Below, in pieces: positions 44,738 to 64,000 of a stretch of 64,000 nucleotides of DNA; the stretch's first letter is position 1, and the number at the start of each line of letters is the position of its first letter. The position numbers and the translations under genes are program-made. The notes beneath the pieces were generated by a model. The model was not told the DNA's origin and did no database searches. It saw only the letters and a list, made by a program, of their open reading frames with translations. The DNA is from Chitinophagales bacterium (GTDB lineage Bacteria; Bacteroidota; Bacteroidia; Chitinophagales; Chitinophagaceae): assembly GCA_030832085.1 (NCBI GenBank), contig JAURJU010000067.1, forward strand, positions 1 through 64,000. Reading direction: 5' to 3'.

Positions 44738-46051
<1,314 letters not shown>

Positions 46052-46178: not shown

Positions 46179-47702
46179 TTATTTGATTTGCACGGCAATT
46201 GTTTTTGACTGTGCATTCCTGATTTGGTTCAACATGTTGGTCAATTCCAATGCTTTTTCTGGAAACTTCGCGTAAAGATTGTTGTCTTCATGTGGGTCTT
46301 TGGCAAGGTTATACAACTGACCCAATGGCTCTCCAGGTTTAGCCTTGAACTGCTTTGGAACAGTAAAACCTCCAGATCCCAGCCCTTCAATCAGTTTCCA
46401 ATTCCCTTTCCGAATGGCAAAATAACCAATTGATGAACTGTGCACTACCGCAGGCTGGTCCTCGACAATCGCTGATTTTCCTTTCAATACAGAAAGAATG
46501 CTATAGCTGTCTTCTGTACGGTATTTCTCTTCCGCAATGCCTAAAATCTCAGCAACAGTTGCCATCAGGTTTGCCAAAGTGGTCGTTGCGGGAGTTGTAC
46601 TTCCTGCTTTGATTGTTCCGGGCCAGCGTACAATAAAAGGCACACGGTGTCCTCCTTCGAAGGCATCTCCTTTCATACCCCGCCATGGCCCTGCAGACTT
46701 GTGCTGAAATTTGCTGACATAATCATCCCTCCAATAAGGGCCATTGTCACTGGTAAAAACAACCATGGTGCTGTTTGACAATCCCATGCTGTCAAGGGTT
46801 CGCATGATCTCACCCACTGAGGCGTCTACTTGTTGAACATAGTCACCATATTCTCCTGCACCTGATGTACCGACAAAACCAGTGATCGGCATCCAGGGAG
46901 TATGGGGAGCAGGCATGGGAAGATATAGAAAGAAAGGTTTTTGGTTGGTTTGAAGTTGGATAAACTGGTTTGCTTTTCTCGTAAACCCCGGCAATACATC
47001 AAAAAAATCAAAGGAAGGAGACATCAGGCCAGGTCTCCAGAAAGCCCCAGCATAACCCGTATCCGGCTTTTTTCCGGGTGTAAACGAAGTCAAGGGTTCA
47101 ACCAATTTTCCATTTTCAACATAGCAATACGGTTGCATGTCCAGGGAAGCTGGCAAGACATATGAATAGTCGAAGCCATTGGTCTTTGGGCTTACTGTCA
47201 TTGGTGCAGCCAAATCAACATGGTCAGGATTCATCTCTGCGTCGATGCCATACCGCTTGTTGCCCAAAAGATGGGCATATTCTCGTTTGGGTACCCACCC
47301 CAATCCCAAATGCCACTTTCCAACAACAGCAGTGTTGTAACCGTTTTCTTTCAACAGGGAAGCCACGGTTGCACGATCATTTTCCATGAGGGGTCTACTG
47401 AAACCATTCAATACGCCAACAGGTCGTTGGCTCCGCCAGGGATAGCGACCTGTCATGATTGAATAGCGTGTGGGAGTGCATACACCAGATGGTGAATGGG
47501 CGTCAGTGAAACGCATCCCCTGCTTGGCCAGCTTGTCTATATTGGGCGTGTTGATCTTTCCTTGCTTGTTGTAGACCTTTACATCTCCATATCCCAAATC
47601 ATCGGTAAGGATATAAATGATATTGGGCCTCTTTATTTGAGCCAAGGGTTGATGCTGAACGATGAAAAGTACCATCAAGGTCAGTAAAAATGATTTATGC
47701 AT
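46179..47702 (-). CDS. Secreted S1-family sulfatase
   Basis: Removes sulfate esters, here probably from a polysaccharide in the periplasm or at the cell surface. The 507-residue protein has a signal peptide (1-~21) and the S1 sulfatase start IIYILTDDLGYGD, whose aspartates bind calcium. The modification site is Cys75 in CTPTR, which must be turned into formylglycine. GKWHLGLGWVPKREY and FTSDNGPYWRDD supply other active-site residues. It is the last gene of the polysaccharide cluster and starts 18 bases after the cytochrome gene. The maturation enzyme is not in this window. Confidence 0.93.
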   Translation of the reverse strand: MHKSFLLTLMVLFIVQHQPLAQIKRPNIIYILTDDLGYGDVKVYNKQGKINTPNIDKLAKQGMRFTDAHSPSGVCTPTRYSIMTGRYPWRSQRPVGVLNGFSRPLMENDRATVASLLKENGYNTAVVGKWHLGLGWVPKREYAHLLGNKRYGIDAEMNPDHVDLAAPMTVSPKTNGFDYSYVLPASLDMQPYCYVENGKLVEPLTSFTPGKKPDTGYAGAFWRPGLMSPSFDFFDVLPGFTRKANQFIQLQTNQKPFFLYLPMPAPHTPWMPITGFVGTSGAGEYGDYVQQVDASVGEIMRTLDSMGLSNSTMVVFTSDNGPYWRDDYVSKFQHKSAGPWRGMKGDAFEGGHRVPFIVRWPGTIKAGSTTPATTTLANLMATVAEILGIAEEKYRTEDSYSILSVLKGKSAIVEDQPAVVHSSSIGYFAIRKGNWKLIEGLGSGGFTVPKQFKAKPGEPLGQLYNLAKDPHEDNNLYAKFPEKALELTNMLNQIRNAQSKTIAVQIK

Positions 47703-47720
47703 GTATCTTGTTTTAATGCG

Positions 47721-48770
47721 TTATGGTTTCATTGACTTTATCCAGTCACTGATGAGCTTTACGCCCTCCGCATGGATGCGTTTTCTGCTGACCTCTGGCA
47801 TCATCACGCCTGGATCTGTGGACTGCATGCGGAACAACAGAATACTTTCGCTTGGTTTTCCCGGATGAATATCATATCTAAGATTTCCAGATCCCCTGCC
47901 TGCAGCAATGGGGGTTTTATAGAACCCATAAGCAGATTTGTCTGTGGTCTTCCAATCCAGAAAAAGTCCGGAAGTCTGTGCAGGTCCTGTTTTGTTGTGA
48001 CAGTGTGCACAGTTGACATCGAGGTAAGCCTTGGCACGGTCATCAATGTTTTTGGCAGGATCACTGTAATTGACAAACTGCGGAACTACGGACATCTCTT
48101 GTGGAAGGCCTGTCATCATGGCATCCTGCGACCATTTCTTGAGTTGGTTTTGAGTTCCATCGACATATTCATGATCACCATTGAGTTGTCTTGCAGATGG
48201 GCCAATAGGCGTCATGATTCCATTGTTATCATGGCAGCTTTTGCATTGGTTCATGTTGGGTACAGTGTATTCAAAAGAAATCTTTTCACCTTTTTCATTG
48301 AGATAATTCACATTGGTACTTCCACCAGCCACTTCCAACAAGGCATCCGTCTGCTCCTGATTCCAAATGTAAGGAAGTGATCGCCAACCTTTGGGTTCAT
48401 GGATAAGAATACGTGTTTCAATGAGCCTCCTGCCTTTAGATGGATCTTTCTCATCGTTGAAAAAATAAAAGGTTTTGGCAATGGTAGTACCCACAGGAAA
48501 TTGAAAAACCGAATCCGGATTGTATTCCACATGTCCGCCACTGGGCAATTGCACGAAACGCAACTTGTGCGCATAGTCCGAAAACAAGGGTGAATTGAGT
48601 GAATAGGGCATCACGTTTTTCACGGGTTGCTGATCACTGATTTTCCCTTCAAAAATCCCGTATTCAGATAAGCGTTGTTTATAGGCATATTGTTCCACGC
48701 CCTTGAAAGACATGGAAAAAATGGTGATCGTCAACGCCAGAACAGCAATGGCTAGGTATCCCTTTTTCAT
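47721..48770 (-). CDS. Diheme c-type cytochrome, SO2930-like
   Basis: A 349-residue exported protein with a signal anchor (1-~20) and two heme c sites, CKSCH (176-180) and CAHCH (254-258). Composition and layout match the SO2930-like diheme family (TIGR03806 as I recall). That family is known to be encoded next to a parallel beta-helix protein, exactly as here. It should sit in the periplasm or be membrane-tethered and carry electrons. Its redox partner and purpose are unknown. It starts 9 bases after the beta-helix gene stop and is followed by the sulfatase, all within a polysaccharide-degradation cluster. Confidence 0.88.
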   Translation of the reverse strand: MKKGYLAIAVLALTITIFSMSFKGVEQYAYKQRLSEYGIFEGKISDQQPVKNVMPYSLNSPLFSDYAHKLRFVQLPSGGHVEYNPDSVFQFPVGTTIAKTFYFFNDEKDPSKGRRLIETRILIHEPKGWRSLPYIWNQEQTDALLEVAGGSTNVNYLNEKGEKISFEYTVPNMNQCKSCHDNNGIMTPIGPSARQLNGDHEYVDGTQNQLKKWSQDAMMTGLPQEMSVVPQFVNYSDPAKNIDDRAKAYLDVNCAHCHNKTGPAQTSGLFLDWKTTDKSAYGFYKTPIAAGRGSGNLRYDIHPGKPSESILLFRMQSTDPGVMMPEVSRKRIHAEGVKLISDWIKSMKP

Positions 48771-48779
48771 CCTAATTTC

Positions 48780-49988
48780 TTAGTGGTTATTGGCTATGTT
48801 GATCGCAGCCAGGGTACAATTGTGTTTCGTAACATCCCTAGAAATGCTTTTGAAATCATTTTCCGCGTCAATGTTCGCAAAACTTTGGTTTTTGTTGTTT
48901 TGGATGCAGATCATGAATTCTGGTTTGACGTTACCAACTGCATCGCGGTAAGCCGGATTGATGATGCCATCATATACAATATGGGGAACATTGCGACCAA
49001 ATTTCAATTTGAAATGATAAATCTGAGCAAAACGTCCTTCAAACGGCACTTTTCGATGTTTTCTCTCAAAGGTATTGTCATGCACAGATATTGCACTGGG
49101 GTATGGATTATATTCTTTGTCCTTGAATTTGTTTTCTGTGATATAATAACTGATGATACCAACCCCCATCGTACTGTTATTGATGATATCATTGTTGAAC
49201 ACCTCGACGTGATTGGAAGCCAGCAACATGAGTCCTGTTCCTTTTGGCACCTTTGCGACAATGTTTCCTTTGGGTGCAAAATTGGAAAGGTTGTTTTCCC
49301 TAATGATGTTGTTGTGCACTGACACATAGCCACCCTGTTTCTGGATCAATCCAGGAAGATCAAATACAAGGATACCACCAGTATTGCCTGTGGCCAGGTT
49401 GTTGTATACCTCGGCATAAAGAGAGTTTTCTATCTCTATTCCGGCCACATTGTTATATGCCGTGCAGTTTTTAACCACAATGTATTTGGATTGACCCACG
49501 TAAATGCCTGCATCTGAAGCACCTATTGCAATACAACTGTCAATCACTACATTTTCGCATTGTACGGGATAAAGTGCATATCCCCCATTTTTCTCATCCG
49601 GCTTGCCGGTCCATTCTGCCTTGACACGCCTGAAAGTGATGCCTTTGACGTGCATGGTCTTGATCAGATCACCCTTGGAATCCTGAACAGTCATGTCTTC
49701 CAATACAATGTTTTCGCAGTTGCTTACCCTTAAGCCCTCTGCTCCTGAGGTTTGATTCTTGAAACTAAGAATGGTCTTGTCAATGCCCTTTCCCCGGACA
49801 ACAATATTTTTCTTGCCATCCAAAGAAAGGCTTTTGGTAATGCTGAAAACACCTCCATCAAGGTTTACTATATCCCCATCCTCAGAAAGAATCAGATCCG
49901 TCTGGATTTTCTTTTCGATATCCGCCTGCGCGTTCAAATCAATTGTAATGCCGAGCACCATTGAAATCAACCATAATATCTTCTTCAT
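48780..49988 (-). CDS. Secreted parallel beta-helix protein (cytochrome partner family)
   Basis: A 402-residue exported protein with a signal peptide ending near LNAQ (about 20). Its body is a right-handed parallel beta-helix made of ~22-residue coils (for example VVIDSCIAIGASDAGIYVG, IVVKNCTAYNNVAGIEIEN), as in pectate lyase-like and carbohydrate-binding or -cleaving proteins. The family resembles TIGR03805, typically paired with an SO2930-like cytochrome. Lyase activity is not proven. It starts 6 bases before the GH92 stop end (7-base-scale spacing) and is followed after 9 bases by the cytochrome gene. Confidence 0.85.
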   Translation of the reverse strand: MKKILWLISMVLGITIDLNAQADIEKKIQTDLILSEDGDIVNLDGGVFSITKSLSLDGKKNIVVRGKGIDKTILSFKNQTSGAEGLRVSNCENIVLEDMTVQDSKGDLIKTMHVKGITFRRVKAEWTGKPDEKNGGYALYPVQCENVVIDSCIAIGASDAGIYVGQSKYIVVKNCTAYNNVAGIEIENSLYAEVYNNLATGNTGGILVFDLPGLIQKQGGYVSVHNNIIRENNLSNFAPKGNIVAKVPKGTGLMLLASNHVEVFNNDIINNSTMGVGIISYYITENKFKDKEYNPYPSAISVHDNTFERKHRKVPFEGRFAQIYHFKLKFGRNVPHIVYDGIINPAYRDAVGNVKPEFMICIQNNKNQSFANIDAENDFKSISRDVTKHNCTLAAINIANNH

Positions 49989-49994
49989 GTATTT

Positions 49995-52277
49995 CTAATT
50001 GAGTGATGGTTTTGAAATGGAATATGGAAATGAGGCAGGTGCTGTTCCTCGTTTTTTGTTGGGAGCAGAAACCATGTTAAACTTAAGCTGTCCACCCTTC
50101 ATAATGTCAAAATGATGAATATAATTTTTATCATGCTGTTTTCCATTCAACAAAGCTGATCCAATATAAATGTTGCCTGCATTGTTTTGTGGAGATTCAA
50201 TGATGAATTGCTTACCCTTCCCAAGATCAATGGTAACCTTTTTGAACAAGGGTGATCCGAATACATATTCATTCGAACCAGGGCAAACGGGATAGAATCC
50301 CATGGCACTGAACACATACCAGGCACTGGTTTGGCCATTGTCCTCGTCTCCACAAAAACCATCTGGCGTAGGTTTATAGAGTTTGTTCATTGCATCTCGG
50401 ACATGGAACTGGCTTTTCCATGGTGCACCACAATAGTTGTAGATGTACAACATGTGCTGAATGGGCTGGTTTCCATGGGCATACTGGCCCATGTTCATCA
50501 CCTGCATTTCCACCATTTCATGGATCGTTTTTTTGTAATATGCTGTGTCAAAAATGGGAGGAAGGATGAATACGCTGTCGAGCATGTTCTCAAGTGTTTT
50601 TCTTCCACCCATCAAGTTGGCCAATCCATTGAAATCATGAAATACACTCCAACTGTAATGCCAGCTGTTTCCTTCTACAAATTCAAATCCCCAACGGAAG
50701 GGATTGAAGCCGGTTTCAAAACTGCCATCGGCCTTTTTGCCACGCATCAGGTTGTGTGCAGGATCAAATATATTGGTATAATTCAGTGCCCGTTTTTGGA
50801 AAAGGTCAATCTCAGCCTGAGGTCTTTTGAGGGATTTTGCCACCTGACCAATGCAAAAATCTGCATAGGCATATTCAAGTGTTTTTGCAGCACTGCCACC
50901 AAATTGGTCAACAGGAACATAGCCTAACTTATTGTAAGCTTCTGCACCATTTCTTCCTATCGTTGGGATGGAACCCTCACTGTTGCTGCCTTTCAGCATT
51001 GCCTCATAGAGCAAATTGATGTCAAATCCTCGAATGCCTTTCATGTAGGCATCAGCAATAACAGATGACGAGTTGTTGCCAATCATGCTTTTCTTGTGGC
51101 CAGGGCTTGCCCATTCGGGAAGCCACCCACTCTCTTTGTAGGTATTGGCCAATCCCTCCATGATATGGCTGTCGACATCTGGAAAAACCAACGCTAAAAA
51201 GGGAAACAGCGATCGGAACGTATCCCAAAAACCAGTGTCGGTGAACATGTATCCCTTTTCAATGTTTCCGTTATAGGGACTGTAATGAACGATTTCGTTG
51301 TTGGAATTGTATTCATAAAACTTTCTTGGAAAGAGCAACATCCTGTACAAACAGGAATAGAATGTTTTCAACTGCTCTTCCGTTCCACCCTCGGCCTTTA
51401 CCTTTGATAGTTCCCTGTTCCATGATTGCTTTGCTTCTTTAACCACCTGATCAAAATGTTTGGATCCGATTTCCCGGCTCAAGTTAAACTCGGCCTGTTC
51501 CAGGGAAATGAATGAGGATGACACTTTCAGGTGCACCTTTTCACCGCGTCGGGTAGCAAAAGCAATGACCGCTTGGGCATGGTTGCCTGCAAATTCCTTT
51601 TCTCTTGAAGGAACCAATTGATCATCTACTGTGTAAAAAAGCTCAAAAGGCTTGTCGCACTGGATTACAAAATAATTTTTGAAATTGGCCGGAACACCAC
51701 CCCTGTTGCGGGTTGTATATCCCACAATCTTGTTTTGCTCAGGAATGATTTTGATGTAAGATCCTCTGTCAAATGCATCCACCAAAATAAAGGAACTATC
51801 TGTTTTTGGAAAGGTGAACCTGAACATAGAGGCCCTTTCAGTAGGTGCAATCTCTGTTTGAAGGTTGTCATCGGCCAGAAAAACGCTGTAGTAATAGGGC
51901 TTTGCCAATTCGGCTTTGTGTGAAAAAAAACTACCCCTTTGCTCTTCGTTCAACCTTGCTTTTCCTGTCATAGGCATGATGGAGAACTGTCCATAATCTC
52001 CAATCCAGGGAGATGGCTGATGGGTTTGCTTGAAACCCCGAATCCTGTCTGAAGCATACTGGTACTGCCATCCATTGCCATTGGGGCCTGTCTGTGGCGA
52101 CCAGAAATTCATGCCCCAGGGCACTGCAATGGCCGGATAAGTATTGCCATTGGAGAAGCTTTGCTTGGAATCTGTTCCCATCATGATATTGACGTACTCT
52201 TCAGGCTCAAAGCGTTGCTGCGCATTTGTACTGATGGTCAGAAATGAAAAAAGAATAAAAATGTTGCGCATGATCAT
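49995..52277 (-). CDS. GH92 family alpha-mannosidase
   Basis: Exo-acting, calcium-dependent alpha-mannosidase that trims alpha-linked mannose from glycans. The 760-residue protein has a signal peptide (1-~19). The GH92 N-terminal beta-domain has the NTYPAIAVPWGMNFW region, and the helical barrel carries GFWDTFRSLFPFLALVFPD and the hallmark GFCGDEDNGQTSAWYVFSAM (about 638-657). Length fits the family. Linkage specificity (1,2/1,3/1,4/1,6) cannot be read. The ATG overlaps the stop of the upstream gene by 4 bases (ATGA); an alternative ATG lies 6 bases further in. Confidence 0.94.
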   Translation of the reverse strand: MIMRNIFILFSFLTISTNAQQRFEPEEYVNIMMGTDSKQSFSNGNTYPAIAVPWGMNFWSPQTGPNGNGWQYQYASDRIRGFKQTHQPSPWIGDYGQFSIMPMTGKARLNEEQRGSFFSHKAELAKPYYYSVFLADDNLQTEIAPTERASMFRFTFPKTDSSFILVDAFDRGSYIKIIPEQNKIVGYTTRNRGGVPANFKNYFVIQCDKPFELFYTVDDQLVPSREKEFAGNHAQAVIAFATRRGEKVHLKVSSSFISLEQAEFNLSREIGSKHFDQVVKEAKQSWNRELSKVKAEGGTEEQLKTFYSCLYRMLLFPRKFYEYNSNNEIVHYSPYNGNIEKGYMFTDTGFWDTFRSLFPFLALVFPDVDSHIMEGLANTYKESGWLPEWASPGHKKSMIGNNSSSVIADAYMKGIRGFDINLLYEAMLKGSNSEGSIPTIGRNGAEAYNKLGYVPVDQFGGSAAKTLEYAYADFCIGQVAKSLKRPQAEIDLFQKRALNYTNIFDPAHNLMRGKKADGSFETGFNPFRWGFEFVEGNSWHYSWSVFHDFNGLANLMGGRKTLENMLDSVFILPPIFDTAYYKKTIHEMVEMQVMNMGQYAHGNQPIQHMLYIYNYCGAPWKSQFHVRDAMNKLYKPTPDGFCGDEDNGQTSAWYVFSAMGFYPVCPGSNEYVFGSPLFKKVTIDLGKGKQFIIESPQNNAGNIYIGSALLNGKQHDKNYIHHFDIMKGGQLKFNMVSAPNKKRGTAPASFPYSISKPSLN

Positions 52278-53983
52278 GATATATGTAGAGTATGTTTGAA
52301 TGGCGTTGATCCTGTGATGTATGCGGATGGAGCATTCATTGTTGGAAGACCGCCGCGAAGATTATAGCGCTTGTGTTCAGCCTTTCCTGGTCCAAATGAA
52401 ATGGATTGATTATCCACTGTATATTTTCCTTCTGCACCTTTCAGCACATAGGTTTGATTGGAAACAACTTCTTCCAAACCGGCAAAAACGCCGCCGGGTC
52501 TGAAGATCAGCTCCAATGATACCGGTACATGATCGGTTCCGGTTATTTCAATGTCAACATCAATGCCATTGTTTGCTTCCGTGATTTTCACTGTGGTGGT
52601 GAGATGTTGAATTTCAGACTGTGTTCTGTTTGCCTTGGGCATTTTCTCCCAGTCCCCATCGCCCAGAATTTTATTGGCTGGATAAGGCTGATAATATACC
52701 CCTTCAAGGGTGTTACGGAGAACCCATGCATTGCCATCCTGGGTAATTTCGGTTGATTGAAACTGTCCCTTCCCAAAAAATGATGATGCCACCCGCATGG
52801 CTTGCAACATCACTTTCTCCTTGTGAAAAGTCAACCAGCCTGCATTGTTGGACAAGATGGTTGCATCCCAGTCATTTCTGCGTATACGTACTACGCCTGA
52901 ATAGGGAAAGGCTTTTGCGTAACTGATGGGCAAAGGCTTGGGTGAAGGCAATTCCTTCCAAAGCATCTCATCCTGCAAAAAAACTGCAAGATTACCATTC
53001 GTTACATTGGGATTCCTTGTTTCAATCATTCTGCAAAGTTTTGCCATTTGACCGTCATTGTCCAATATTGACATGTAGCGACAGGCATAATAATACCCGT
53101 CCATGCTTCCTATGGTTCCCTTGTCCTGACGGTTAGAAGCTTCTGTAACCACTTCACCATTGGGATGAAGATAATAGTACATCATCTGAAGATTTTTCCT
53201 GACCGGATCCAAAAAACCTGGGTTCTTCAAACCTACAGACATAGTAACGAGACAATGATCAACAATGCCAGAATACCCTCCTGTACTTTTTTCTGTATAC
53301 TGTCCATCCGGATCCAGGTCTATTTTTTCTGCCAACCATTGGTTGATGCGATTAAGGTATCGCTGGTCTGGCCATACCTGGTGGAGTTCTGTCAGTGCAG
53401 CACAAACAACCCAACGATGGTTGGGTGTATGGAGGCCGCCAACAACAAGGCATTCGCCAGCATTTTTAAGCAACAGTTCAAAGGATGTACAGGCATTTTC
53501 AGCACCCTTGATGGATGCTGCCTTAAAACGTTTGTAAGCCGGAACCAGGGCCCTCACCATGAATCCGGTGTCTGGTGTTGAATGGAAATTGGTGTCCAAC
53601 AAATCGATGGTACCATCTTCGTGTTGCAAGGAATGCAAGCAAACAAGCACCTCTTCAATTTCCTTGAGAAGTGTTGGATCTTTGAAATACTTTGATTCCT
53701 CACAGGATATGGCAGTGGAGGCATTGATCAGAAAAGCATTGCAACTTCCAGGATTCACCAAATTGGAGCCGTCCCTGTATCCGCCAAAATAAACATCGGT
53801 AGGATCTGTTACTTTATAGGCAGCAAAACCTTTCAGCCCTTCATCATTGTCCCTGATGGACTTGAGCAGCCAAGACGGTTTTTCAAGGATGGTCTGCTGT
53901 GCTTTGTCAAAACCAGTGAAGCCCATAAAAGGTATGGACGCCAGGGCTGTTGATCCGAGTATGACAAAATTTCTTCTTTGCAT
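52274..53983 (-). CDS. Secreted helical-toroid protein, possible polysaccharide lyase, family unknown
   Basis: A 569-residue exported protein I cannot assign to a CAZy family. It begins with a Tat-like signal (MQRRNFVILGSTALASIPFM, twin Arg at 3-4). Residues ~40-340 read as repeated helical pairs of the (alpha/alpha)-toroid kind (HSTPDTGFMVRALVPAYKRF, TGGYSGIVDHCLVTMSVGL). About 370-569 is beta-rich, as in heparinase- or PL-type lyases with a C-terminal beta-sandwich. His and Tyr residues near STPDTGFMV and GGYSGIVDH could be catalytic, but this is inference. The ATG at 53983 is used; the longer frame lies inside the GH105 gene. It is tightly coupled to its neighbours. Confidence 0.82.
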   Translation of the reverse strand: MQRRNFVILGSTALASIPFMGFTGFDKAQQTILEKPSWLLKSIRDNDEGLKGFAAYKVTDPTDVYFGGYRDGSNLVNPGSCNAFLINASTAISCEESKYFKDPTLLKEIEEVLVCLHSLQHEDGTIDLLDTNFHSTPDTGFMVRALVPAYKRFKAASIKGAENACTSFELLLKNAGECLVVGGLHTPNHRWVVCAALTELHQVWPDQRYLNRINQWLAEKIDLDPDGQYTEKSTGGYSGIVDHCLVTMSVGLKNPGFLDPVRKNLQMMYYYLHPNGEVVTEASNRQDKGTIGSMDGYYYACRYMSILDNDGQMAKLCRMIETRNPNVTNGNLAVFLQDEMLWKELPSPKPLPISYAKAFPYSGVVRIRRNDWDATILSNNAGWLTFHKEKVMLQAMRVASSFFGKGQFQSTEITQDGNAWVLRNTLEGVYYQPYPANKILGDGDWEKMPKANRTQSEIQHLTTTVKITEANNGIDVDIEITGTDHVPVSLELIFRPGGVFAGLEEVVSNQTYVLKGAEGKYTVDNQSISFGPGKAEHKRYNLRGGLPTMNAPSAYITGSTPFKHTLHIS

Positions 53984-53984
53984 G

Positions 53985-55130: not shown

Positions 55131-55208
55131 GGCAAAGCAGTTGATGTATGAATAAATTTAAATCGTTTTAGGTTATGTCGCAAATATGATTTTCAGCATC
55201 CAGAAAAA

Positions 55209-57554
55209 TCATTTCAACTGCTTAATAATTCGCTTTAAGCCCCATTGATTCAGGCTTTCCTTTGCCATTGGCATTGCATCAATGACAAAGATTGGAGGTT
55301 TAGGGCCCGTATACAAAATAGCCTCCTCCCCTTTTTTCAGATCAAGGATGATCTTGCCATTTTTTTCTTGAAGACGATTCGATGGCACACCGAAAACTTT
55401 TACATCAGCAGGCAAATCAGATTGAATGATGCATGGTTCTCCCGCAAGGCTCTTGACATGAATAAACGTCGTTTTACCATTTTCTCTTTTGGCACTGACC
55501 AAAAAAGCGCCTTCGGCCCTGAGCTGATAGAAACTGGCATCTTTCCATGAAGAAGGAGTTGCAGAAAAAACACGGATTACATTTCCCCAGCTTTGAATCA
55601 GCATGTCAAGCATGGCACGAGAGGAAGAAATCGGAGATTCAAAAGTCGGATTGCCTCTTTCGCAATACATTGTATTGGGCGTACAGGTGGGAATTTTAGG
55701 TATCTCTCCTATCCTTGGGAAAATATCCAATGATCGGTTGACCCATTTTAAAGCACTGTCTCCATTACCCAAAGAAGACCAAATGGAGGAAGCCCCTGAA
55801 AACTTATACATGCAATTGTCTCCATCCACATCGGTAAAATGTTGGACAGTTTTTTTGAGCATCGGTATGGAAGCCATATTGTCTTCGATGTTCGTTTCGT
55901 AAAAAGGGAAAACACCCAACATGTGGCTGTAATGGCGGTGGGGTTTAGCAAAGGGGACATCCTTGCCGATCATGATTCCATTTTCATTGGTATGGTAATC
56001 TGCCATTGTTGCCAAACGGTCTTTCCAAACAGGAACCAAAGGATCATTGAGCTTTAGACGTGAACAAATATCAAGCAATGTTTTGAATCCCCATCTGGCC
56101 AAAGCTATGTTCATGCTGGTTTCCTGAGCCTTTCCGTATTCATCTGAAAATGTCAATGGGATATGGTATAAGCCATCATCCCCTTTGTATAAAATCTTAA
56201 GGTAAACACTGTAGGTCTTTTTCATCAGTGGAAAAATGGAATTGCGAAGTCTCTCGTCATCCATCGTCCGCTTGTTGTGCAGATAAAATTGTTGCATCAG
56301 CCAGGGTAAGACTATGATGTTCATCTCACGATCTGTTGTCCGATCTGTAGTGAGAAATACGGGATTGACCAGCTCATCATATCCAACTGGATTACCCAAG
56401 GCTGCGCAATCATCCCTGAACGCCTCTGGAACATTCATTACGAGTTGATCCCTGTGTTTCTCGATGAGGCGGTACAAGGGTTCCTCAAGGTCAAGATGAT
56501 TGGTAATACCTGTTGTATAATAAGACAACTGCACATTGAGGTTCATCCACAAGCATGGCCAGACTGTTGGCTTGTACCATGGGCCCATCAGGTCAATGAC
56601 GGGCTTATCTGACCTTGTGGCACTGGCCAGTTTGTATTGCTGGATCCAGTAAAAACTCTCCATGCGGGCATCCGGAAAGGTAACAAAACTTTTGGGGTAA
56701 TAAGCATGCCACCAGTCACGGTGGACGCCCTCCAATGATGCCATTGATTTTTTCTCTGCATTTTTGATGGTTGCCACTGCATCAATAGCAGAGCCACTGG
56801 AAGGTTGACGTGTTTTAGCCCAGCGGTTGGCAACCGTAAGCATGATGGTTCTTGTACTGTCTGTTTGTTTGCGTTCATGCCAGGCCGTTGCAAAATCATC
56901 TCCCATGGTCAGTAGCTGTGTGACCACCGGAATGCCATTCAGGATTTCCTCCCTCAATGGAGGGTTAGGCATGTAAACAAAACCCTTATCTCTCAGGGGT
57001 TGTGCCAAATACCTTGAACTCACTGCCTGTTGTGGACGAAAACGGCAAATGGCCTTTTGTTCCTTGGAAGAAGTTTTTACATTCAATACGATCACGTTGT
57101 CACCGGTAGGAACAAAACAACGAAATGAAATCTTCCCCAGAGTTGTTTGAATGGTTCCACGGATCTCTGCATTCCAAAGATCTGTCCTCAGATTAATGTC
57201 CTTGATCTCACCTGCAGTAGAAAGCAGTAGTTGTCCGATGGGTATTCTTCCGCCATAATGTGCGATGGGAAGGTCTTTGGAGCGATGGTCGTATACATCC
57301 GTCCTGCCAATTTCAAACCGCAGTGTATTGTGTTGAAGATTGTCCTTGAAGACGATTGTACCCAGCAATCCATTACCAACAAAGGGGGCCTCAAAATAAT
57401 CTCCTGGCATGGTATCCCATACCATATCATGGTGTGAGAGGTATTCCTGCCAATTGACTTTAAGATTAACACCGGGTATCTTGGCTGGGTTTTGAGCAAC
57501 CACCAGAATGAATGAAGCAATGACGAGTATAAAAAAGAAAAAAACTTTTCGCAT
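55209..57554 (-). CDS. GH95-like glycoside hydrolase
   Basis: A secreted 781-residue enzyme with the layout of GH95 (alpha-L-fucosidase / alpha-L-galactosidase). A signal peptide (1-~21) is followed by an N-terminal beta-domain with APFVGNGLLGTIVF (about 56-69). That matches the GH95 'PxGNGxLGA' motif. An (alpha/alpha)6 barrel (about 300-660) and a C-terminal beta-domain complete it. KPHRHYSHMLGVFPFYET (about 563-580) matches the conserved H-Y/H-H-L-x-x-L/V-F-P stretch of the family. I chose the ATG at 57554; a TTG at 57557 would add one residue. Specificity is not readable. It starts 17 bases after the upstream gene. Confidence 0.85.
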   Translation of the reverse strand: MRKVFFFFILVIASFILVVAQNPAKIPGVNLKVNWQEYLSHHDMVWDTMPGDYFEAPFVGNGLLGTIVFKDNLQHNTLRFEIGRTDVYDHRSKDLPIAHYGGRIPIGQLLLSTAGEIKDINLRTDLWNAEIRGTIQTTLGKISFRCFVPTGDNVIVLNVKTSSKEQKAICRFRPQQAVSSRYLAQPLRDKGFVYMPNPPLREEILNGIPVVTQLLTMGDDFATAWHERKQTDSTRTIMLTVANRWAKTRQPSSGSAIDAVATIKNAEKKSMASLEGVHRDWWHAYYPKSFVTFPDARMESFYWIQQYKLASATRSDKPVIDLMGPWYKPTVWPCLWMNLNVQLSYYTTGITNHLDLEEPLYRLIEKHRDQLVMNVPEAFRDDCAALGNPVGYDELVNPVFLTTDRTTDREMNIIVLPWLMQQFYLHNKRTMDDERLRNSIFPLMKKTYSVYLKILYKGDDGLYHIPLTFSDEYGKAQETSMNIALARWGFKTLLDICSRLKLNDPLVPVWKDRLATMADYHTNENGIMIGKDVPFAKPHRHYSHMLGVFPFYETNIEDNMASIPMLKKTVQHFTDVDGDNCMYKFSGASSIWSSLGNGDSALKWVNRSLDIFPRIGEIPKIPTCTPNTMYCERGNPTFESPISSSRAMLDMLIQSWGNVIRVFSATPSSWKDASFYQLRAEGAFLVSAKRENGKTTFIHVKSLAGEPCIIQSDLPADVKVFGVPSNRLQEKNGKIILDLKKGEEAILYTGPKPPIFVIDAMPMAKESLNQWGLKRIIKQLK

Positions 57555-57571
57555 CAAAAAATATTTAATGA

Positions 57572-59488
57572 CTAACGGTATTTACCCATTATTTTCTTGC
57601 CATAATCAACGCCATCCACACTGAACAGGATATTTCGGTTCAATGGAGTTGGGTTATAATAACCCAACCTTATTTTCTTATTGAGGTCTGCTTTCAATCC
57701 AAGCCTTCCTGAAATTGTTTGTACAGATACATCTACAATTCCATTTGCTTCTGTGAATAAAACTGGAGCATCCAACACTGAATTTCTAAAGGCCTGAAAC
57801 TTTGCATCAGTAGTTATACCCTCTGCAGCTTTCCACCACATCACTATATTTCCTTTTCCATTGTTAGGATGCTTCAAAGTAAGGCGTAAAGCTTCATTGT
57901 GCACTAAATTAAAAGCTTCCCTGTTAGCGTTGTATTTGAAACCATCGTTGTACAATGTCGCCTTTTCACCATTTTCAGCATTGCTGTATATTATTTTGAT
58001 GGCAATGGCAACATCTTCAAAGGTTGCAAAAAAGGTATTGGTCGAATCAAGTGGGATTGCAGTTCCGGCGACGCGCTGCATGATACGCGTATTCCCAAAC
58101 CAAAGCTGATCAAAATAATTGGGAAGTATCACTGTCGAATTGACATAATCATAAATACAATTGTGGTCTTTTTCACCGCTGACCAACATCACAAATTCAT
58201 TCCTGTTTTGTGATGCCTGCATGAATGGCATCAAATGCCTTGTCTTGCCCCAACCACCATTTGAAGGATATTTTGGAGGCATCAGGTGCTTCATCTTATC
58301 GCCCATGCCTGTTGCACTCCAGGTTCCATAATGGTCATTCCGTCCTTCCATGACATAGACAATGTTGGGCATCTCAGGAATCCGCTGGCTGTTGAGATAC
58401 ATCACAAAGGACTTGTCGTCGGGACTGTAATACTGACTGGATGAAGCAATGGAGAATTTCTTTCCATGAAAATCCGTGGTAAAAGTATGGGGTAAACTGT
58501 CCCAGCGTTGTTCAATGAACCGGTTCGATCTTGTCATGAGCGATCGCTGGAATGCTGTCAAGCCACGCTCTTTTAAAATAGAATAGCAAACTTGATTAAA
58601 GAGCTGATTATTTTTATTTTCCCTGCCAAGCAAAGGATTGATATATTTTTCCTCCAGCAAATCTCGACCAAATACACGGTTATAATCCCTGCTGTGTGCG
58701 CCTGCCAGAAAACCACCCAATGGGTTGTAATGTGCAGCTAAATCTGTGATAAAAAAATCAAGCGCATCTGATGCTTTTTGATGGATGTCTGCATCTTTGG
58801 CAAATTGTACCATCAATAACAATGATTCGATGTCAACCCCGGAATACGTTGGGCTATCATATTCCCTGTTACCATAATTGGCGACATGCTTCAACCAAAT
58901 ATTAAAAGCCTTTCTACCTTCCTCCACAACAGCAGGATTGTTGTACACCTGACCGAGTGCAATAAAATTCCAACAACGCATCAAATAAATATTCGTGTAC
59001 GAAATCCTCACGGGTTGTCGGCGAATGCCAATCAATGTTTGGGCAAAAAGATTATCTAAAGAAGCCCTGGCTTCAGAAGAAAGGCGATCATTGAAAAGTA
59101 ATTTGATCAGTATCCCATACTGTACACAAAACTCTACATTGTTCCCATCTCCTACATCACCACCGGTTTCCGTCCAGCCCCAATACATGTTGCCAAAGGA
59201 TGGTTTAGTGCTATCTGTAATAATCCTTGTTTTCACCAAATCAATGGTCCACAAAACTTCTTCCGGCTTTAAAAACTTTGTGTCCAATGCATCCAACAAG
59301 AATAGAAAACAATCACGAACACCAAGCCTGGGAGGTCTCTGATGCAAGGCTTTCCATTGCTGTTGTAGATTTTCAAGTCGCATTTGCGGATTGGGGACTG
59401 CTGGAACAGCAAATTGCTTTTTGACCTGAGAGAAACCAGCATACTGTAAACCCAAGAAAAAAACCACTATCCAAAACTTCATTTTCAT
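57572..59488 (-). CDS. Secreted lyase-like helical protein, family unknown
   Basis: A 638-residue exported protein without a recognised family. It has a signal peptide (1-~20). Residues ~30-290 form a helical region with WGWTETGGDVGDGNNVEF (about 103-120) and YDSPTYSGVDIES (Tyr215), followed by GGFLAGAHSRDYNRVFGRD (His265). From ~330 on it is beta-rich. Helical toroid plus beta-sandwich, with a Tyr and a His on conserved-looking loops, is the pattern of several PL families; that is inference. I considered PL8 but did not see its Asn-Trp-Trp signature. The ATG at 59488 is used; GTG at 59494 is an alternative. It lies 18 bases after the CE15 gene. Confidence 0.8.
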   Translation of the reverse strand: MKMKFWIVVFFLGLQYAGFSQVKKQFAVPAVPNPQMRLENLQQQWKALHQRPPRLGVRDCFLFLLDALDTKFLKPEEVLWTIDLVKTRIITDSTKPSFGNMYWGWTETGGDVGDGNNVEFCVQYGILIKLLFNDRLSSEARASLDNLFAQTLIGIRRQPVRISYTNIYLMRCWNFIALGQVYNNPAVVEEGRKAFNIWLKHVANYGNREYDSPTYSGVDIESLLLMVQFAKDADIHQKASDALDFFITDLAAHYNPLGGFLAGAHSRDYNRVFGRDLLEEKYINPLLGRENKNNQLFNQVCYSILKERGLTAFQRSLMTRSNRFIEQRWDSLPHTFTTDFHGKKFSIASSSQYYSPDDKSFVMYLNSQRIPEMPNIVYVMEGRNDHYGTWSATGMGDKMKHLMPPKYPSNGGWGKTRHLMPFMQASQNRNEFVMLVSGEKDHNCIYDYVNSTVILPNYFDQLWFGNTRIMQRVAGTAIPLDSTNTFFATFEDVAIAIKIIYSNAENGEKATLYNDGFKYNANREAFNLVHNEALRLTLKHPNNGKGNIVMWWKAAEGITTDAKFQAFRNSVLDAPVLFTEANGIVDVSVQTISGRLGLKADLNKKIRLGYYNPTPLNRNILFSVDGVDYGKKIMGKYR

Positions 59489-59506
59489 CTGCACTTTTTT
59501 ACTTTA

Positions 59507-60703
59507 TTATTGAACAAACTTCTTCGCGAAGGATATATATTGATCCCAATCATAAGCCAAAATATTATGCTTGCCATTTCGAATATGATAGGACACTGTA
59601 GCTCCAACATGCATATTCAACTCAGGAAAATTAGGAGAATTGATTCCCTTCAATCCATACAATTTGTATACTTCTGTGGCCAACAATGCAGATTTAAATT
59701 CGTTTTTAGGATCAGCCCACGCATCTTCTGATGCGCTGGCGACATAGAGAGGTCTGGGAGCTACCATGGCCAGCACCATGTGCTGATCAAATGGAAGCAA
59801 AGATTCGTTTTCGGTATATTTTTTGAAATTCACTGCTGTCCATCTAGGAAACCGGTTGTTCATTTTCAACAAGGTTTCGCCGGCTTTTTCACGGTAAATA
59901 GAAGCACCACCACATCCAGAATTGTTTGAAATGACAGCCGCAAAACGCTTGTCTCTGGCACCTGCCCAAAGAGCAGCCTTTCCCAAACGGGAATGGCCAA
60001 TCACAATGACCTTGGATCCATCAACCTGCTTGTCGGTTTTCATATAATCCAGAGCTCGGGAAAGTCCCCAGGCCCAGGCTGCCAGCGATCCCCACTCATT
60101 GTTTGCGGGCTTTGTTTGACCTGCCTTGTACAACAAAGGATAGATGCCGATAGAAAAATCTTCTCTGTCCGGCGCAATGTCCCAATAATACATGGTAGCA
60201 ACGCCGCATCCAGCATTGATCAGTCTTTCCACTTCCCAATTGGAAGTCTCAACTCCCCGGGGTTTTGCCGCACCGTTCCATTCCTTGGCAATATGGATGG
60301 CGGTATCGCCGTAAATGGTGTGGTTTCCGCTAAAATTATATCCCAAAAATGTTGGGTATGATTTTTTACCCTTGGGCAGGTACATCAACAATTCAACACT
60401 TAATTCTTTTTGATTTCCACGAAAGGTCAGCTTTACCTGTTTGCGGATGGCCTTGCCTTGGAGCGCCTGAACATCCTGATCTAGTATATTGATTTCTGAT
60501 ATTTTCAACTCTCCCGGAACGATTCCGTACATTTCGGATTCAACCATGGCAAGGATTTCAGGCCTCCTGAGCTTTTCCCATTGTTTGCTGGAAGCAATGG
60601 TGTTGCCATTTTTAGCCATCAATAGCTCAGGTATATTTTGCTGTGAAAATGACTCAATAGAACACAAAATGATCAACGTGCAAAACAATACGATTTTATT
60701 CAT
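59507..60703 (-). CDS. CE15 glucuronoyl methylesterase-like enzyme
   Basis: Serine esterase of the alpha/beta-hydrolase fold that cleaves esters of (methyl)glucuronic acid, as between glucuronoxylan and lignin or other glucuronates. The 398-residue protein has a signal peptide (1-~20). The CE15 nucleophile motif is IGHSRLGKAALWAGA (Ser238), with the oxyanion Arg next to it, SNNSGCGGASIYREKAGE and AAWAWGLSRALDYM. A C-terminal RNGKHNILAYDW supplies the likely catalytic His. Bacterial CE15 members may act on pectin- or xylan-type substrates. It is followed by the lyase-like gene after 18 bases and preceded by the GH27 gene (10 bases). Confidence 0.9.
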   Translation of the reverse strand: MNKIVLFCTLIILCSIESFSQQNIPELLMAKNGNTIASSKQWEKLRRPEILAMVESEMYGIVPGELKISEINILDQDVQALQGKAIRKQVKLTFRGNQKELSVELLMYLPKGKKSYPTFLGYNFSGNHTIYGDTAIHIAKEWNGAAKPRGVETSNWEVERLINAGCGVATMYYWDIAPDREDFSIGIYPLLYKAGQTKPANNEWGSLAAWAWGLSRALDYMKTDKQVDGSKVIVIGHSRLGKAALWAGARDKRFAAVISNNSGCGGASIYREKAGETLLKMNNRFPRWTAVNFKKYTENESLLPFDQHMVLAMVAPRPLYVASASEDAWADPKNEFKSALLATEVYKLYGLKGINSPNFPELNMHVGATVSYHIRNGKHNILAYDWDQYISFAKKFVQ

Positions 60704-60713
60704 GTTATGGTGT

Positions 60714-62726
60714 TTATTTGATTGGATAAAGCCTGTACATCGTCACGCCATGGTGTGGAATGATGGATGTGAATGATGATTCTTTTACACCCAGATTTTT
60801 CTGACGCCATACATCATGAACACGCCATTTACCTTTCAACCCAAGCTTTGCAAATGTTACATTGAAATTCTTGGGCTTCTCTGTTCCCCAACGGAAAAAT
60901 GATTGCGGAAGTTTACCATAATCATCTGTGTTGAAAAACCCTACAGCATAGGATCCGTCTTGCATTGGTTTCAACCAGGTTTGAACACCACCCTCATCTG
61001 CAATCAACCTGGCAGATTTTCCCAAGGGGTCCTGATCGATGTCAATCACTTCATCGTTGGTCAACAAGTTCAATGTAAAAGCATCAAGCTGTTCAATCGG
61101 ACAACCAATCAGCAAGGGTGCTGACAGCAATGCAAACAGACTGATATGACTGTATTGCTCATCAGGTGTAAGCCTTGTTGGATGCATATCTGTTCCTGTG
61201 GTAACATTCCCAAGTATCATCATGTCTGGATCATTCCAATGCCCTGGACCCCCATAAGGACCCCATTTATCCAGGGTAAATGTACAACGGTACAAACCAT
61301 GCCAGCTGTCGCGAATATCTGGCCCAGTTCTGTACATATTGGAAATCCTGACCCAGTCTTTAACATCACTGAAAGGAGCAGAATTTGACAAACTGTATAT
61401 CATGTCACGGCCTGATTGTTTTAATGCGATGGACATCCTTTCAGCAGATGGCACTTCAAGCCTCCAGTCATACTTCAGAAAGTCTACACCCCAATCTGCC
61501 ATTTGTAGAGCATCTTCTTTTTCAAAGCGGTATTTTCCAATATACCTGAATGATCGTTTGTTGTTTTTGATAGAATCTGGAAAGGCACCATTTTCAAAAT
61601 TGGAAGAACCTCCAATATAGCCTGCATAGCTAGTAATCCATGGGGTTGAATACACTCCGAGCTTCAACCCCATGCCATGAATTTCATCTATCATTTCCTT
61701 GAAATTGGGAAATTTTTCATTGGCTTGCATGGCATTGTATTTTCCCGCCCTATTGCCTTGCCAGGCATCATCGATGTTTACATAATTCCATCCATGGTCT
61801 TTCAATCCCATGTTCACCATGGCTTTGGCAGAGGCGATAACCTTTCCACCATCAATCTGTCGAGCCCAGGAATTCCATCCATTCCAACCCATGGGCGGTG
61901 TCAAAGAAATGGTATCGCCTACTTTGATAAGCAATGATTTTTGTGATTCCCCTAATTTATTCCGTGCTTTTAAAACAATCTCATGATTGCCTTTCTCCAT
62001 CAATTTTCCTGTGATGATTCCCGTTTTTGAATCCAATGTCAATCCTTTGGGCAAACGATCTACAGCAAACTGCATGGGTTTTTCTCCGGTTGCAACAATG
62101 GTGAATAAAAATGGATTTCCGGGTGTAACACCAAAAACCGGTGCTGTATTGATTCTCGGCGAAGGTTTTGATGCTGGAGTCAGGATATATCTTTCACCAT
62201 CATTGGGTATATTCATGGGCTTTGTGTCTCCTATCATGGTGATTTGTGCATCGGCAAAGTTTGAATACACCTTGGTAAATCCCTGGTCATTCACCTTTAC
62301 CAGCAATCCCATGCGTTGAACGCCCCTTAGATCAACAGTAAATGATTTTGGCTTGTCGCCATATTTCATATCACCACTGGCAAACAAAACCTTGCCATCT
62401 GCCACCACATAAAACTGGTGTGGAAGAAATTGATTTCCCTGATCATCCACGCCCACTGCAGCTGAAAATTCAGTGGCATTGCCTTTCAGATAAAATGACA
62501 GGATGCTGGTTGCCTGAACACCAATTCCACGCTTGAAGACTTTGCCCGCAATCCTGATGCTATCCCCTCCTCCATTCATTTTTGCGTTCACACCCGGAAT
62601 CCCTTCTGAATATGTCTGAATCACAAGATCATCCAGCCAAAGCTTATTTGTTTGTTGGGCATGAACGACCTGTAAAATAAAAAACAAGAAAACCAGCTTC
62701 GAAAATTTATTGAGTACATTTTTCAT
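60714..62726 (-). CDS. GH27 alpha-galactosidase with N-terminal NPCBM domain
   Basis: Secreted exo-enzyme that removes alpha-linked galactose (some members: beta-L-arabinopyranose). The 670-residue protein has a signal peptide (1-~23), an NPCBM-type carbohydrate-binding domain (about 28-165) and a putative Ig-like domain (about 195-270). The GH27 barrel starts at PPMGWNGWNSW (278-287). The nucleophile is Asp420 in FLKYDW and the likely acid/base Asp470 in TGPDIRDSW. WGPYGGPGHWNDPDMMILG is also typical. It starts 63 bases after the esterase gene; no perfect promoter element was seen in that gap. Confidence 0.93.
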   Translation of the reverse strand: MKNVLNKFSKLVFLFFILQVVHAQQTNKLWLDDLVIQTYSEGIPGVNAKMNGGGDSIRIAGKVFKRGIGVQATSILSFYLKGNATEFSAAVGVDDQGNQFLPHQFYVVADGKVLFASGDMKYGDKPKSFTVDLRGVQRMGLLVKVNDQGFTKVYSNFADAQITMIGDTKPMNIPNDGERYILTPASKPSPRINTAPVFGVTPGNPFLFTIVATGEKPMQFAVDRLPKGLTLDSKTGIITGKLMEKGNHEIVLKARNKLGESQKSLLIKVGDTISLTPPMGWNGWNSWARQIDGGKVIASAKAMVNMGLKDHGWNYVNIDDAWQGNRAGKYNAMQANEKFPNFKEMIDEIHGMGLKLGVYSTPWITSYAGYIGGSSNFENGAFPDSIKNNKRSFRYIGKYRFEKEDALQMADWGVDFLKYDWRLEVPSAERMSIALKQSGRDMIYSLSNSAPFSDVKDWVRISNMYRTGPDIRDSWHGLYRCTFTLDKWGPYGGPGHWNDPDMMILGNVTTGTDMHPTRLTPDEQYSHISLFALLSAPLLIGCPIEQLDAFTLNLLTNDEVIDIDQDPLGKSARLIADEGGVQTWLKPMQDGSYAVGFFNTDDYGKLPQSFFRWGTEKPKNFNVTFAKLGLKGKWRVHDVWRQKNLGVKESSFTSIIPHHGVTMYRLYPIK

Positions 62727-62789
62727 AACTACTTAATTGTCTTTATGCTAACTTCCATTGTTACCATCAATAATTGGTGCACTTCTAAA

Positions 62790-64000
62790 TTATTTTTTTG
62801 CTTTTTCTGCCACCATCATCAACACATTCTTGTCGTTCCATTCCTGGGTATGGCCAGCCATCGGTGTAAATGAAATCTTGGCATCGGATTTGGGATTGGT
62901 TGTTGAATCTAAAAATGCTTTGAAAAAACGGGTAGAAAGATTTGAATAGAGTCCATCCATATCGCCAGTCCAAATCCAGATCTTTCCCTGCAACTTCGGG
63001 CCAAGCACTGACCAGTTTTTTTCAAGTACTTTTTTCAAGTCATACTTCTCCCATTGCTTCGCGATGGCATGGTTTATTTTTCCTGTGATGGGATCAAACA
63101 TCATGGTGGGCAATCCGTCTGAAGACTTTGGACCAAACACTGCATTGTAGGCACCAAACTGTCCGCCTGAAACCCGGTAATCATTTGTCCTGCTGTTTAC
63201 ATTCTCTCCTCTGATCCAATCCTTCATTGAAAAAGTGGGTTCTCCAAATGTGGTTCTTCTTCCTGGCTGCAAATATCCAAATCGGTTGTAAAAAATCGTT
63301 TCGTCTTCATAAATGTTGATGAGTCCATAATGAGAAAATTCGAGAGGGTCCGGGCTGTAAGACCAAGTACCATCAAAGAAATCAGGATAAAACACCTGTA
63401 ATCCCATGGCAACCCATCCGCCTGTTGAAGCACCTGCCAGGTATCTATTTTTAGATGAAGGATTGTAGTTGACCATCTTTTCAATAGCAGGGATGAGTTC
63501 CTCCGTCAATGCTTGGCCACAGGGGCCATTGTTCTCTGAATCTACCTGATAGGTATCACCATAAGGGCCCTGGGAGTCCAGGAAAACATAAATGACCTGA
63601 GGAGCTTGTTTAGAAAACCACCAATCGGCAAAGTCTTTTCTGGTCACCAGCCCATTGATTGCAGTATACCTGCCATTCAGGCCTGGAATGCGATAACAGA
63701 TTGGATATCGCTTTAATGAATCTTCAAAATAGCCAGAGGGCAGCAATACAGAGGCTTTCAGAAACCTTGGATGCCCTGAAAATGCTGTCAACAATTTGCT
63801 TTGTATGTGAATGGTCCGAACATGTGGATGACTGATGATGGTGGAAGGCGAAATGATTGAATCCAGGCTAAGTTGCAGGTTTAGTTTACCGGACTGCTCC
63901 AAATCAAAGGAGTCCACCTGGCTGTAAAGATTGCCTTCAACATTTTCATTGCCATCATCAATATTTTGTTTGTAAACAGCCTGATAATAGTATTTTCCGG
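62790..64000 (-). CDS. CE1-like putative esterase (5' end outside the window)
   Basis: A serine esterase of the alpha/beta-hydrolase fold, related to the Esterase D / CE1 group that removes acyl or feruloyl groups from polysaccharides. The frame stays open to the window edge, so the gene begins outside. The GTG at 63917 is probably internal (the 27 codons before it read as ordinary protein). A beta domain (KLNLQLSLDSIISPSTI) precedes the esterase part, which has the nucleophile in LAGASTGGWVAM (GASTGG). The catalytic His is probably in MAGHTQEW near the C-terminus. It is the most upstream visible gene of the polysaccharide cluster. Confidence 0.85.
   Translation of the reverse strand, partial: GKYYYQAVYKQNIDDGNENVEGNLYSQVDSFDLEQSGKLNLQLSLDSIISPSTIISHPHVRTIHIQSKLLTAFSGHPRFLKASVLLPSGYFEDSLKRYPICYRIPGLNGRYTAINGLVTRKDFADWWFSKQAPQVIYVFLDSQGPYGDTYQVDSENNGPCGQALTEELIPAIEKMVNYNPSSKNRYLAGASTGGWVAMGLQVFYPDFFDGTWSYSPDPLEFSHYGLINIYEDETIFYNRFGYLQPGRRTTFGEPTFSMKDWIRGENVNSRTNDYRVSGGQFGAYNAVFGPKSSDGLPTMMFDPITGKINHAIAKQWEKYDLKKVLEKNWSVLGPKLQGKIWIWTGDMDGLYSNLSTRFFKAFLDSTTNPKSDAKISFTPMAGHTQEWNDKNVLMMVAEKAKK

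Follow-up and report, generated by a model that had tools for sequence, protein, structure and literature searches.

Gene content of the cluster

The window, a 64,000-base stretch of DNA from a Chitinophagales bacterium, comprises the first 64,000 bases of contig C39, which is 67,382 bases long and belongs to a draft genome of 2.89 Mb and 111 contigs. From 46179 to the window end it carries a polysaccharide-degradation cluster of eleven open reading frames (ORFs), all on the minus strand, two of which encode the unassigned proteins U1 and U2. All eleven genes of the first-pass annotation are present as ORFs, and its family labels (CE1-like, GH27, CE15, GH95-like, GH88, GH92, sulfatase, beta-helix protein and diheme cytochrome) are borne out by profile matches.

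In the direction of transcription the first gene encodes a CE1-like esterase (Esterase, PF00756, 41 bits), which occupies 62790-64000 and runs past the window (whole gene 62790-64343). It is followed by a protein with domain matches to NPCBM, a putative Ig domain, GH27 (with KYD) and a C-terminal domain (60714-62726), a CE15-type glucuronoyl esterase (59507-60703; GCE_fung, 116 bits, GHSRLG motif) and U2 (57572-59488), which has a signal-peptide-like start and is predicted, at low confidence, to have a helical N-terminal half and a beta-rich C-terminal half. The next gene (55209-57554) encodes a diverged GH95-superfamily glycosidase that scores 79.5 bits against a cut-off of 27, while GH95 at the same operon slot of a relative (G016) scores 523 bits; its start is ATG, with TTG at 57557 also possible. 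A GH88 family gene (unsaturated uronyl hydrolases; 53985-55130, 220 bits) lies directly upstream of U1 (52274-53983). The U1 start is the conserved ATG at 53983, the mechanically listed start at 54145 being too early. Downstream follow GH92 (49995-52277, 572 bits), a TIGR03805 right-handed beta-helix protein (48780-49988, profile match) and its partner, an SO2930-family diheme c-type cytochrome (TIGR03806; 47721-48770) with two CXXCH motifs and a start that is signal-peptide-like by eye. The last gene is a sulfatase (PF00884; 46179-47702, 168 bits) with a C-T-P-T-R formylglycine-type motif at residue 75.

Counted from the last gene upwards, the intergenic gaps are 18, 9, 6, -4, 1, 78, 14 or 17, 12 or 18, 10 and 63 bases, the alternatives depending on TTG/GTG or ATG starts. 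The earlier description of gaps of 1-20 bases or 4-base overlaps is right for most junctions but not for those of 63 and 78 bases. The gene order is kept in several same-genus genomes, so the cluster is not a chance assembly. In one genome (G003, L035:6753-7867) no GH88 ORF is listed between U1 and the GH95-like gene. The last sulfatase is followed downstream by a Cys/Met-metabolism enzyme (44738-46048). In G017 and G005, too, an ORF of 436 amino acids, the length of this enzyme, comes after the sulfatase, so the cluster probably has its 3' edge at this junction.

The contig end and a PL15-type lyase gene

The contig continues for another 3.4 kb past the window and terminates at 67,382, mid-gene, inside the same operon. 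The extension carries, on the same minus strand, a second sulfatase (64374-65831) and a truncated gene with DUF4962 and Hepar_II_III_C domains, which starts at 65836 and runs off the contig. Both sulfatases have the C-x-P-x-R motif. The truncated gene is of PL15 type, and the earlier statement that no recognised polysaccharide lyase (PL) is visible therefore fails in the extended locus; a known PL there, named beforehand as the refuting observation, was found. Extending past base 64000 gave the second sulfatase and this gene but no susCD or regulator up to 67,382.

The truncated copy is 84% identical to residues 354-866 of a full-length relative in G030 (L036:9938-12538). That relative matches the PL15 exo-heparinase 6lja with an E value of 2.7e-103 over residues 71-807. 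In an alignment read by eye it has His, Tyr and His at exoHep positions 337, 390 and 555, with Met for Asn336, and the truncated copy has the Tyr and His at positions 390 and 555. According to a passage of PMC7904915, exoHep mutants of His337, Tyr390 and His555 lose nearly all activity. The PL15-type gene removes the need for U1 as a lyase but leaves the evidence that U1 is one untouched. The G030 locus (L036:9938-18170), upstream of the second sulfatase, also holds two more sulfatases, a second Hepar_II_III_C protein and a DUF6807 protein.

The beta-helix and cytochrome pair

Both members of the pair exceed their curated cut-offs, the beta-helix protein with 354.1 against 141.5 for TIGR03805 and the cytochrome with 399.8 against 313.3 for TIGR03806. 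In a phylum sample of 296 genomes, 21 have a TIGR03805 match above the cut-off. Neighbourhoods were fetched for 19 of these, one each, the other two being the present genome and G263, a genome of another genus of the same family. In 14 of the 19, no further gene matched a reference set of glycan and cytochrome proteins; a SusC-like gene was found in L238 and L248, a symporter-like gene in L240 and L242, and a GFO protein with a DUF7133-type protein in L243. Among 119 relatives the beta-helix protein was found in 50 at E <= 1e-30, with a single match in 44 of these. Five same-genus genomes have the beta-helix gene beside carotenoid-type genes, labelled from ORF lengths and sequence starts; the linked domains (Amino_oxidase and Caroten_synth) were confirmed for one, L259. 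At L259:3-4156 and other same-genus loci the pair lies between a phytoene desaturase-like FAD enzyme and a carotenoid biosynthesis gene. In two further same-genus genomes it lies beside a GH16-type gene (domain confirmed for L255).

The pair could be a passenger whose redox role is general and unrelated to the cluster. The 14 neighbourhoods lacking a further reference-set match and the carotenoid-type neighbours in same-genus relatives make this a serious possibility, if one short of an even chance. The phylogenies argue the other way. Quick trees without bootstrap, with support from the SH-like approximate likelihood ratio test (SH-aLRT), were made from 60 beta-helix and 45 cytochrome proteins, the latter all with two CXXCH motifs. 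In both trees the copies linked to a polysaccharide utilization locus (PUL) form two clades (SH-aLRT 99 and 100), and the carotenoid-linked copies group apart from these with other same-genus copies. The first clade also holds the two GH16-linked genomes and L257 (G016), which was labelled 'other' in the first tree although GH92 adjoins. One PUL clade spans metagenome-assembled genomes (MAGs) of both Cytophagaceae and Chitinophagaceae, and the pair therefore seems to move with the cluster. Judged from the trees, the pair is co-inherited with this type of PUL in the two clades.

SO_2930 is tabulated under outer membrane/extracellular in PMC4837345, and a table in PMC3584217 places TIGR03805 in a Burkholderia exopolysaccharide cluster. 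The open-licence literature gave no paper combining PUL wording, 'diheme cytochrome' and 'sulfatase'.

U1, a candidate lyase family

U1 had no Pfam, NCBIfam or useful PDB-profile match, no CAZy search having been made. Relatives were found in 12 of 119 related genomes and in 14 of 395 genomes sampled across the phylum, the present genome being counted in both. A scan of named genomes gave at least 594 pattern-matched stretches, at least 579 of which encode a U1 relative, and 80 named loci were kept from these.

The window sequence and 41 of the 80 loci were used as input for a structure model, which has a pLDDT of 90.6 and consists of helices from residue 37 to 342 and of strands from 354 to 568. 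Its best Foldseek matches are PL17, PL15 and PL8 lyases with TMq about 0.5, the top one (E 7.6e-12) being a PL17-type alginate lyase. VIA-align gave Z 18.1 against heparinase III (4fnv), with rmsd 4.5 over 442 aligned residues. The best 50 rows contain PL12, PL33, PL35, PL39, PL17 and PL8 lyases and exoHep at Z 15-18, some of the PL numbers being those of PMC12088678, and end with human dermatan sulfate epimerase (6hzn, Z 15.2). Over about residues 32-569 U1 is thus predicted to share the fold of an (alpha/alpha) toroid followed by an antiparallel beta-sheet.

Conservation was read from two alignments that share some sequences, A4 (42 rows) and A3 (14 rows). N188 and H189 are present in all rows of both, and Y237, 49 residues after N188, in 42/42 (A4) and 13/14 (A3). 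The leader is RR-x-x-F, with R3 and F6 invariant in A3, which we take to be Tat-like. Table 4 of PMC12088678 lists Tyr and His as catalytic across toroid-fold lyases, with Asn in most entries. The Asn-Tyr spacings computed from its entries are 53-63, against 49 in U1, a comparison made on sequence spacing.

A sequence link between U1 and heparinase III was considered and rejected. The likeness (NHR...DGxxxExS..Y) was seen by eye and was unsupported by local alignment against shuffles: of four comparisons involving two heparinase III sequences, that with the window U1 was equalled by 251 of 2000 shuffles and the other three by 930 to 1962 of 2000. The apparent NHR...Y motif was not what the alignment covered. 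When the U1 profile was compared with those of one Hepar_II_III protein, of U2 and of a family related to U2, the probabilities were below 1%.

A toroid-fold protein need not be a lyase, and U1 could instead be an epimerase, a hydrolase or a binding protein, which we consider unlikely. The match to dermatan sulfate epimerase and the GH127 entries in the Foldseek list fit such a role. So does the state of H387, the sole candidate beta-domain His, which is not conserved (30/42 in A4, 7/14 in A3). The rejected heparinase III likeness and the lack of a significant sequence link to any lyase tested likewise count against lyase activity. Lyases are, however, the top whole-chain matches; the invariant Asn-His, with the Tyr 49 positions later, is similar to the Asn/Tyr pattern in Table 4 of PMC12088678; and a GH88 gene adjoins U1. 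U1 is regarded, from its modelled fold, as a candidate new uronate lyase family. The first-pass suggestion that one or both unassigned proteins may be the missing lyase gains support for U1.

U1 neighbourhoods

Counts over the 80 U1 loci are lower bounds, being based on a restricted reference set of proteins and on many short loci. U1 passes the ORF filter in 78 of them (not L165 and L180). SusC was found in at least 18 loci, SusD in at least 17, GH88 in at least 15, GH92 in at least 22, sulfA-like genes in at least 22 and GH27 in at least 16. In each of the 15 loci with GH88, that gene is U1's direct upstream neighbour and has the same orientation, with gaps of -4 to 38. Among these loci are two from Aquirufa (isolates, L162 and L163), two from Cytophagaceae (MAGs, L181 and L190) and one from Saprospiraceae (a MAG, L154); the remaining ten are Chitinophagaceae-, Sediminibacterium- or Bacteroidetes-labelled. 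Two points limit the tie to GH88. The 15 cases are not independent, most being related, and for the other 63 of the 78 U1 genes the upstream position is taken by a different family, by a gene that is unassigned or on the opposite strand, or by the end of the locus.

Distant U1 relatives in G044 and G065 share their loci with SusC/SusD and a sodium:solute symporter (in G044 also with GH28), and one in G113 adjoins a Pel9A-like beta-helix protein. The U1 locus of Runella aurantiaca (L126) holds SusC/SusD together with DUF6797- and DUF7133-cytochrome genes. Other U1 loci carry DUF6797-, DUF7133- or, once, ThuA-GSDH-cytochrome-CBM6 proteins. The last is from Rhabdobacter roseus (L173:11858-15379), where a single protein directly after U1 combines ThuA, glucose/sorbosone dehydrogenase (GSDH), PKD, cytochrome c and CBM6 domains. 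Of the 63 U1 loci of at least 12 kb, 27 have a cytochrome of one of three types, a raw count, uncorrected for background, that makes the cytochrome genes near U1 in other loci a lead.

DUF1080 or GFO/IDH/MocA genes lie near U1 in 26 of the same 63 loci. PF06439 (DUF1080) matches number 10-24 per genome in eight genomes, and chance proximity to U1 is therefore not negligible. None of the 14 matches in the present genome is on C39; DUF1080 was seen near U1 only in other genomes. A periplasmic 3-keto glycoside route (DUF1080 with an oxidoreductase) was rejected for this cluster on that ground. DUF1080 has been linked to periplasmic 3-ketolactose use in passages of PMC9007349 in which cytochromes are not mentioned, and no paper in the open-licence literature combined any two of 3-keto-disaccharide, DUF1080 and PUL.

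The cytochrome genes bring up a wider reading, a redox-assisted PUL in which the new lyase family (U1) would work with a cytochrome-linked, sugar-oxidising step. Electrons from the oxidised glycan would leave via the cytochrome/beta-helix pair here and, at the other U1 loci, via DUF6797-, DUF7133- or GSDH-cytochrome proteins. We hold this to be improbable.

U2 and its fusions

U2 was found in 11 of the 119 relatives, the present genome counted, in G263 as the one additional full-length case from the phylum sample, and in 7 of the 80 named U1 loci, some from the same genomes. In G007 (L052:4253-10054) a single 1933-residue ORF has the arrangement GH27-GH27-U2, with two NPCBM-GH27-type units. 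In G004 a GH27-U2 frame on one contig and a U2-GH88 frame on another overlap by 103 residues with one difference. A GH27-U2-GH88 fusion, not seen whole, is likely in that genome. Because of these fusions U2 is placed, by sequence context, in a functional link with GH27 and GH88. The next ORF in G007 (L052:10059-13205; 1048 residues) is sulfatase-like over residues 22-516 and GH28-like over 515-1048 by BLAST.

Profile comparison found U2 homologous to a family of about 600 residues (98.2%, E 4.3e-14, 491 columns), one scanned member of which had no Pfam match. Both have an Asn and a later Tyr in E-x-x-S-P-x-Y, at a spacing of 49 in U2 and 61 in the related family. The pattern resembles that of the lyases, a likeness in sequence that proves nothing.

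The head of the locus in relatives

In G263, 12 of 13 genes of the present contig end (all but CE15) are found within a same-strand run of ORFs that extends for about 61 kb, from SusC at C3:172,272 to GH92 at C3:111,308, with SusC/SusD at its head. SusD domains were confirmed; for SusC the plug and carboxypeptidase-regulatory domains were confirmed, the barrel not. The G263 locus has in addition GH43, GH3, GH28, GH2, GH78, DUF1080 and more sulfatase-like genes. It also holds three proteins of about 720 residues (L083:15235-17403, L083:17403-19562 and L084:12214-14379) with no Pfam match at E 0.01. A Cytophagaceae MAG locus (L181) carries 6 of the 13 genes, in the order ECF sigma factor, FecR, SusC, SusD, GH88, U1, GFO/IDH/MocA protein, GH92, beta-helix, cytochrome and sulfatase. 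No linked regulator was seen on the present contig end, while ECF sigma and FecR precede SusC in L181. A 343-amino-acid ORF of G007 is LacI-type by eye from its sequence.

Since the contig stops inside the operon and the relatives with most of the same genes have SusC/SusD at the head, the absence of the two is most likely an effect of the assembly edge, the simplest reading, unproven for this genome. The first-pass annotation had made 'without SusC/SusD' a property of the cluster, which these loci do not support. A non-canonical PUL truly without SusC/SusD would fit the lack of both among the ORFs from 46179 to the contig end and the best SusC match of the genome to the G263 SusC, only 36% identical, but with a contig that stops mid-gene and homologous loci that carry both genes it is very improbable.

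Model and substrate

The same-strand cluster of CAZyme and sulfatase genes is conserved between genomes, as in canonical PULs. It is probably the downstream part of a large PUL of Chitinophagaceae type, cut by the contig end and directed at a sulfated uronate heteropolysaccharide, with U1 acting as a lyase. The sulfatases, CE15, PL15-type and GH88 genes point to a sulfated, ester-linked uronate polymer, in support of the substrate class first proposed. GH27, GH92 and the GH95-like enzyme point to galactose/arabinose-, mannose- and fucose/galactose-type branches, the activities known for these families.

From gene content, conservation, the predicted U1 fold, the PL15 similarity, the fusions and the co-inheritance we infer every catalytic step and the substrate. 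SusC/SusD, encoded off this contig, would import a sulfated, esterified, uronate-containing heteropolysaccharide, which the sulfatases and the CE1 and CE15 esterases would unmask. The PL15-type lyase and U1 may then cleave uronyl links by beta-elimination, and GH88 would remove the resulting unsaturated uronate. GH27, GH92 and the GH95-like enzyme would trim the branches, U2 may serve a step tied to those of GH27 and GH88, and the beta-helix/diheme cytochrome pair would be a co-inherited redox accessory.

Besides the points raised for U1 and the missing SusC/SusD, three observations weigh against this model. The N-terminal half of the PL15-type gene is missing from the rest of the assembly, which gave one weak match of 25% identity and no other. 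No CE15 match was found in G263 among the 13 genes compared. The U2 model is poor (pLDDT 54.8, from eight rows).

Among the matches listed from named genomes, those closest to U1 come from an uncultured 'ErkenSummer' bacterium and from two MAGs of Chitinophagaceae. The isolate names suggest a lake origin for these, and the host is probably also from a lake. If so, a phytoplankton or microbial exopolysaccharide is a plausible substrate. No paper combining PUL, freshwater, sulfatase and Chitinophagaceae was found in the open-licence literature.

Comparison with known systems

The system is an ordinary, known kind of PUL, truncated, and its points of interest are the candidate new lyase family U1 and the unusual cytochrome module. 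In a locus of so familiar a kind the missing SusC/SusD is probably no puzzle. U1 represents a lyase-fold family that occurs at hundreds of sites in genome collections, has no Pfam model and is, over part of its distribution, linked with GH88. The PUL-linked cytochrome clades would make cytochrome-coupled glycan breakdown a testable question.

With the exolytic heparinase BIexoHep of PL15 (6lja, PMC7904915) the G030 relative has the equivalents of His337, Tyr390 and His555 in common; it differs in the Met for Asn336, and the present copy is cut by the contig end. U1 is like the toroid and antiparallel beta-sheet lyases of PL8, PL12, PL15, PL17, PL33, PL35 and PL39 in its predicted fold (Z 15-18), but differs in its RR-type leader, in having no profile match to solved structures and in having no invariant candidate beta-domain His. 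The beta-helix and cytochrome genes are adjacent and over both curated cut-offs, as in the TIGR03805/TIGR03806 pair of the SO2930 family, but are here within a PUL and not stand-alone or beside carotenoid genes.

Bacteroidota PULs with sulfatases, GH88 and a toroid-fold lyase are known, for example those for glycosaminoglycans or alginate. The present system agrees with these in the SusC/SusD of its relatives, the sulfatases, the combination of a lyase with GH88 and the co-directional genes. It differs in bringing together GH27, GH92, the GH95-like enzyme, CE15 and CE1 with the lyase-fold protein U1 and an embedded beta-helix/cytochrome pair.

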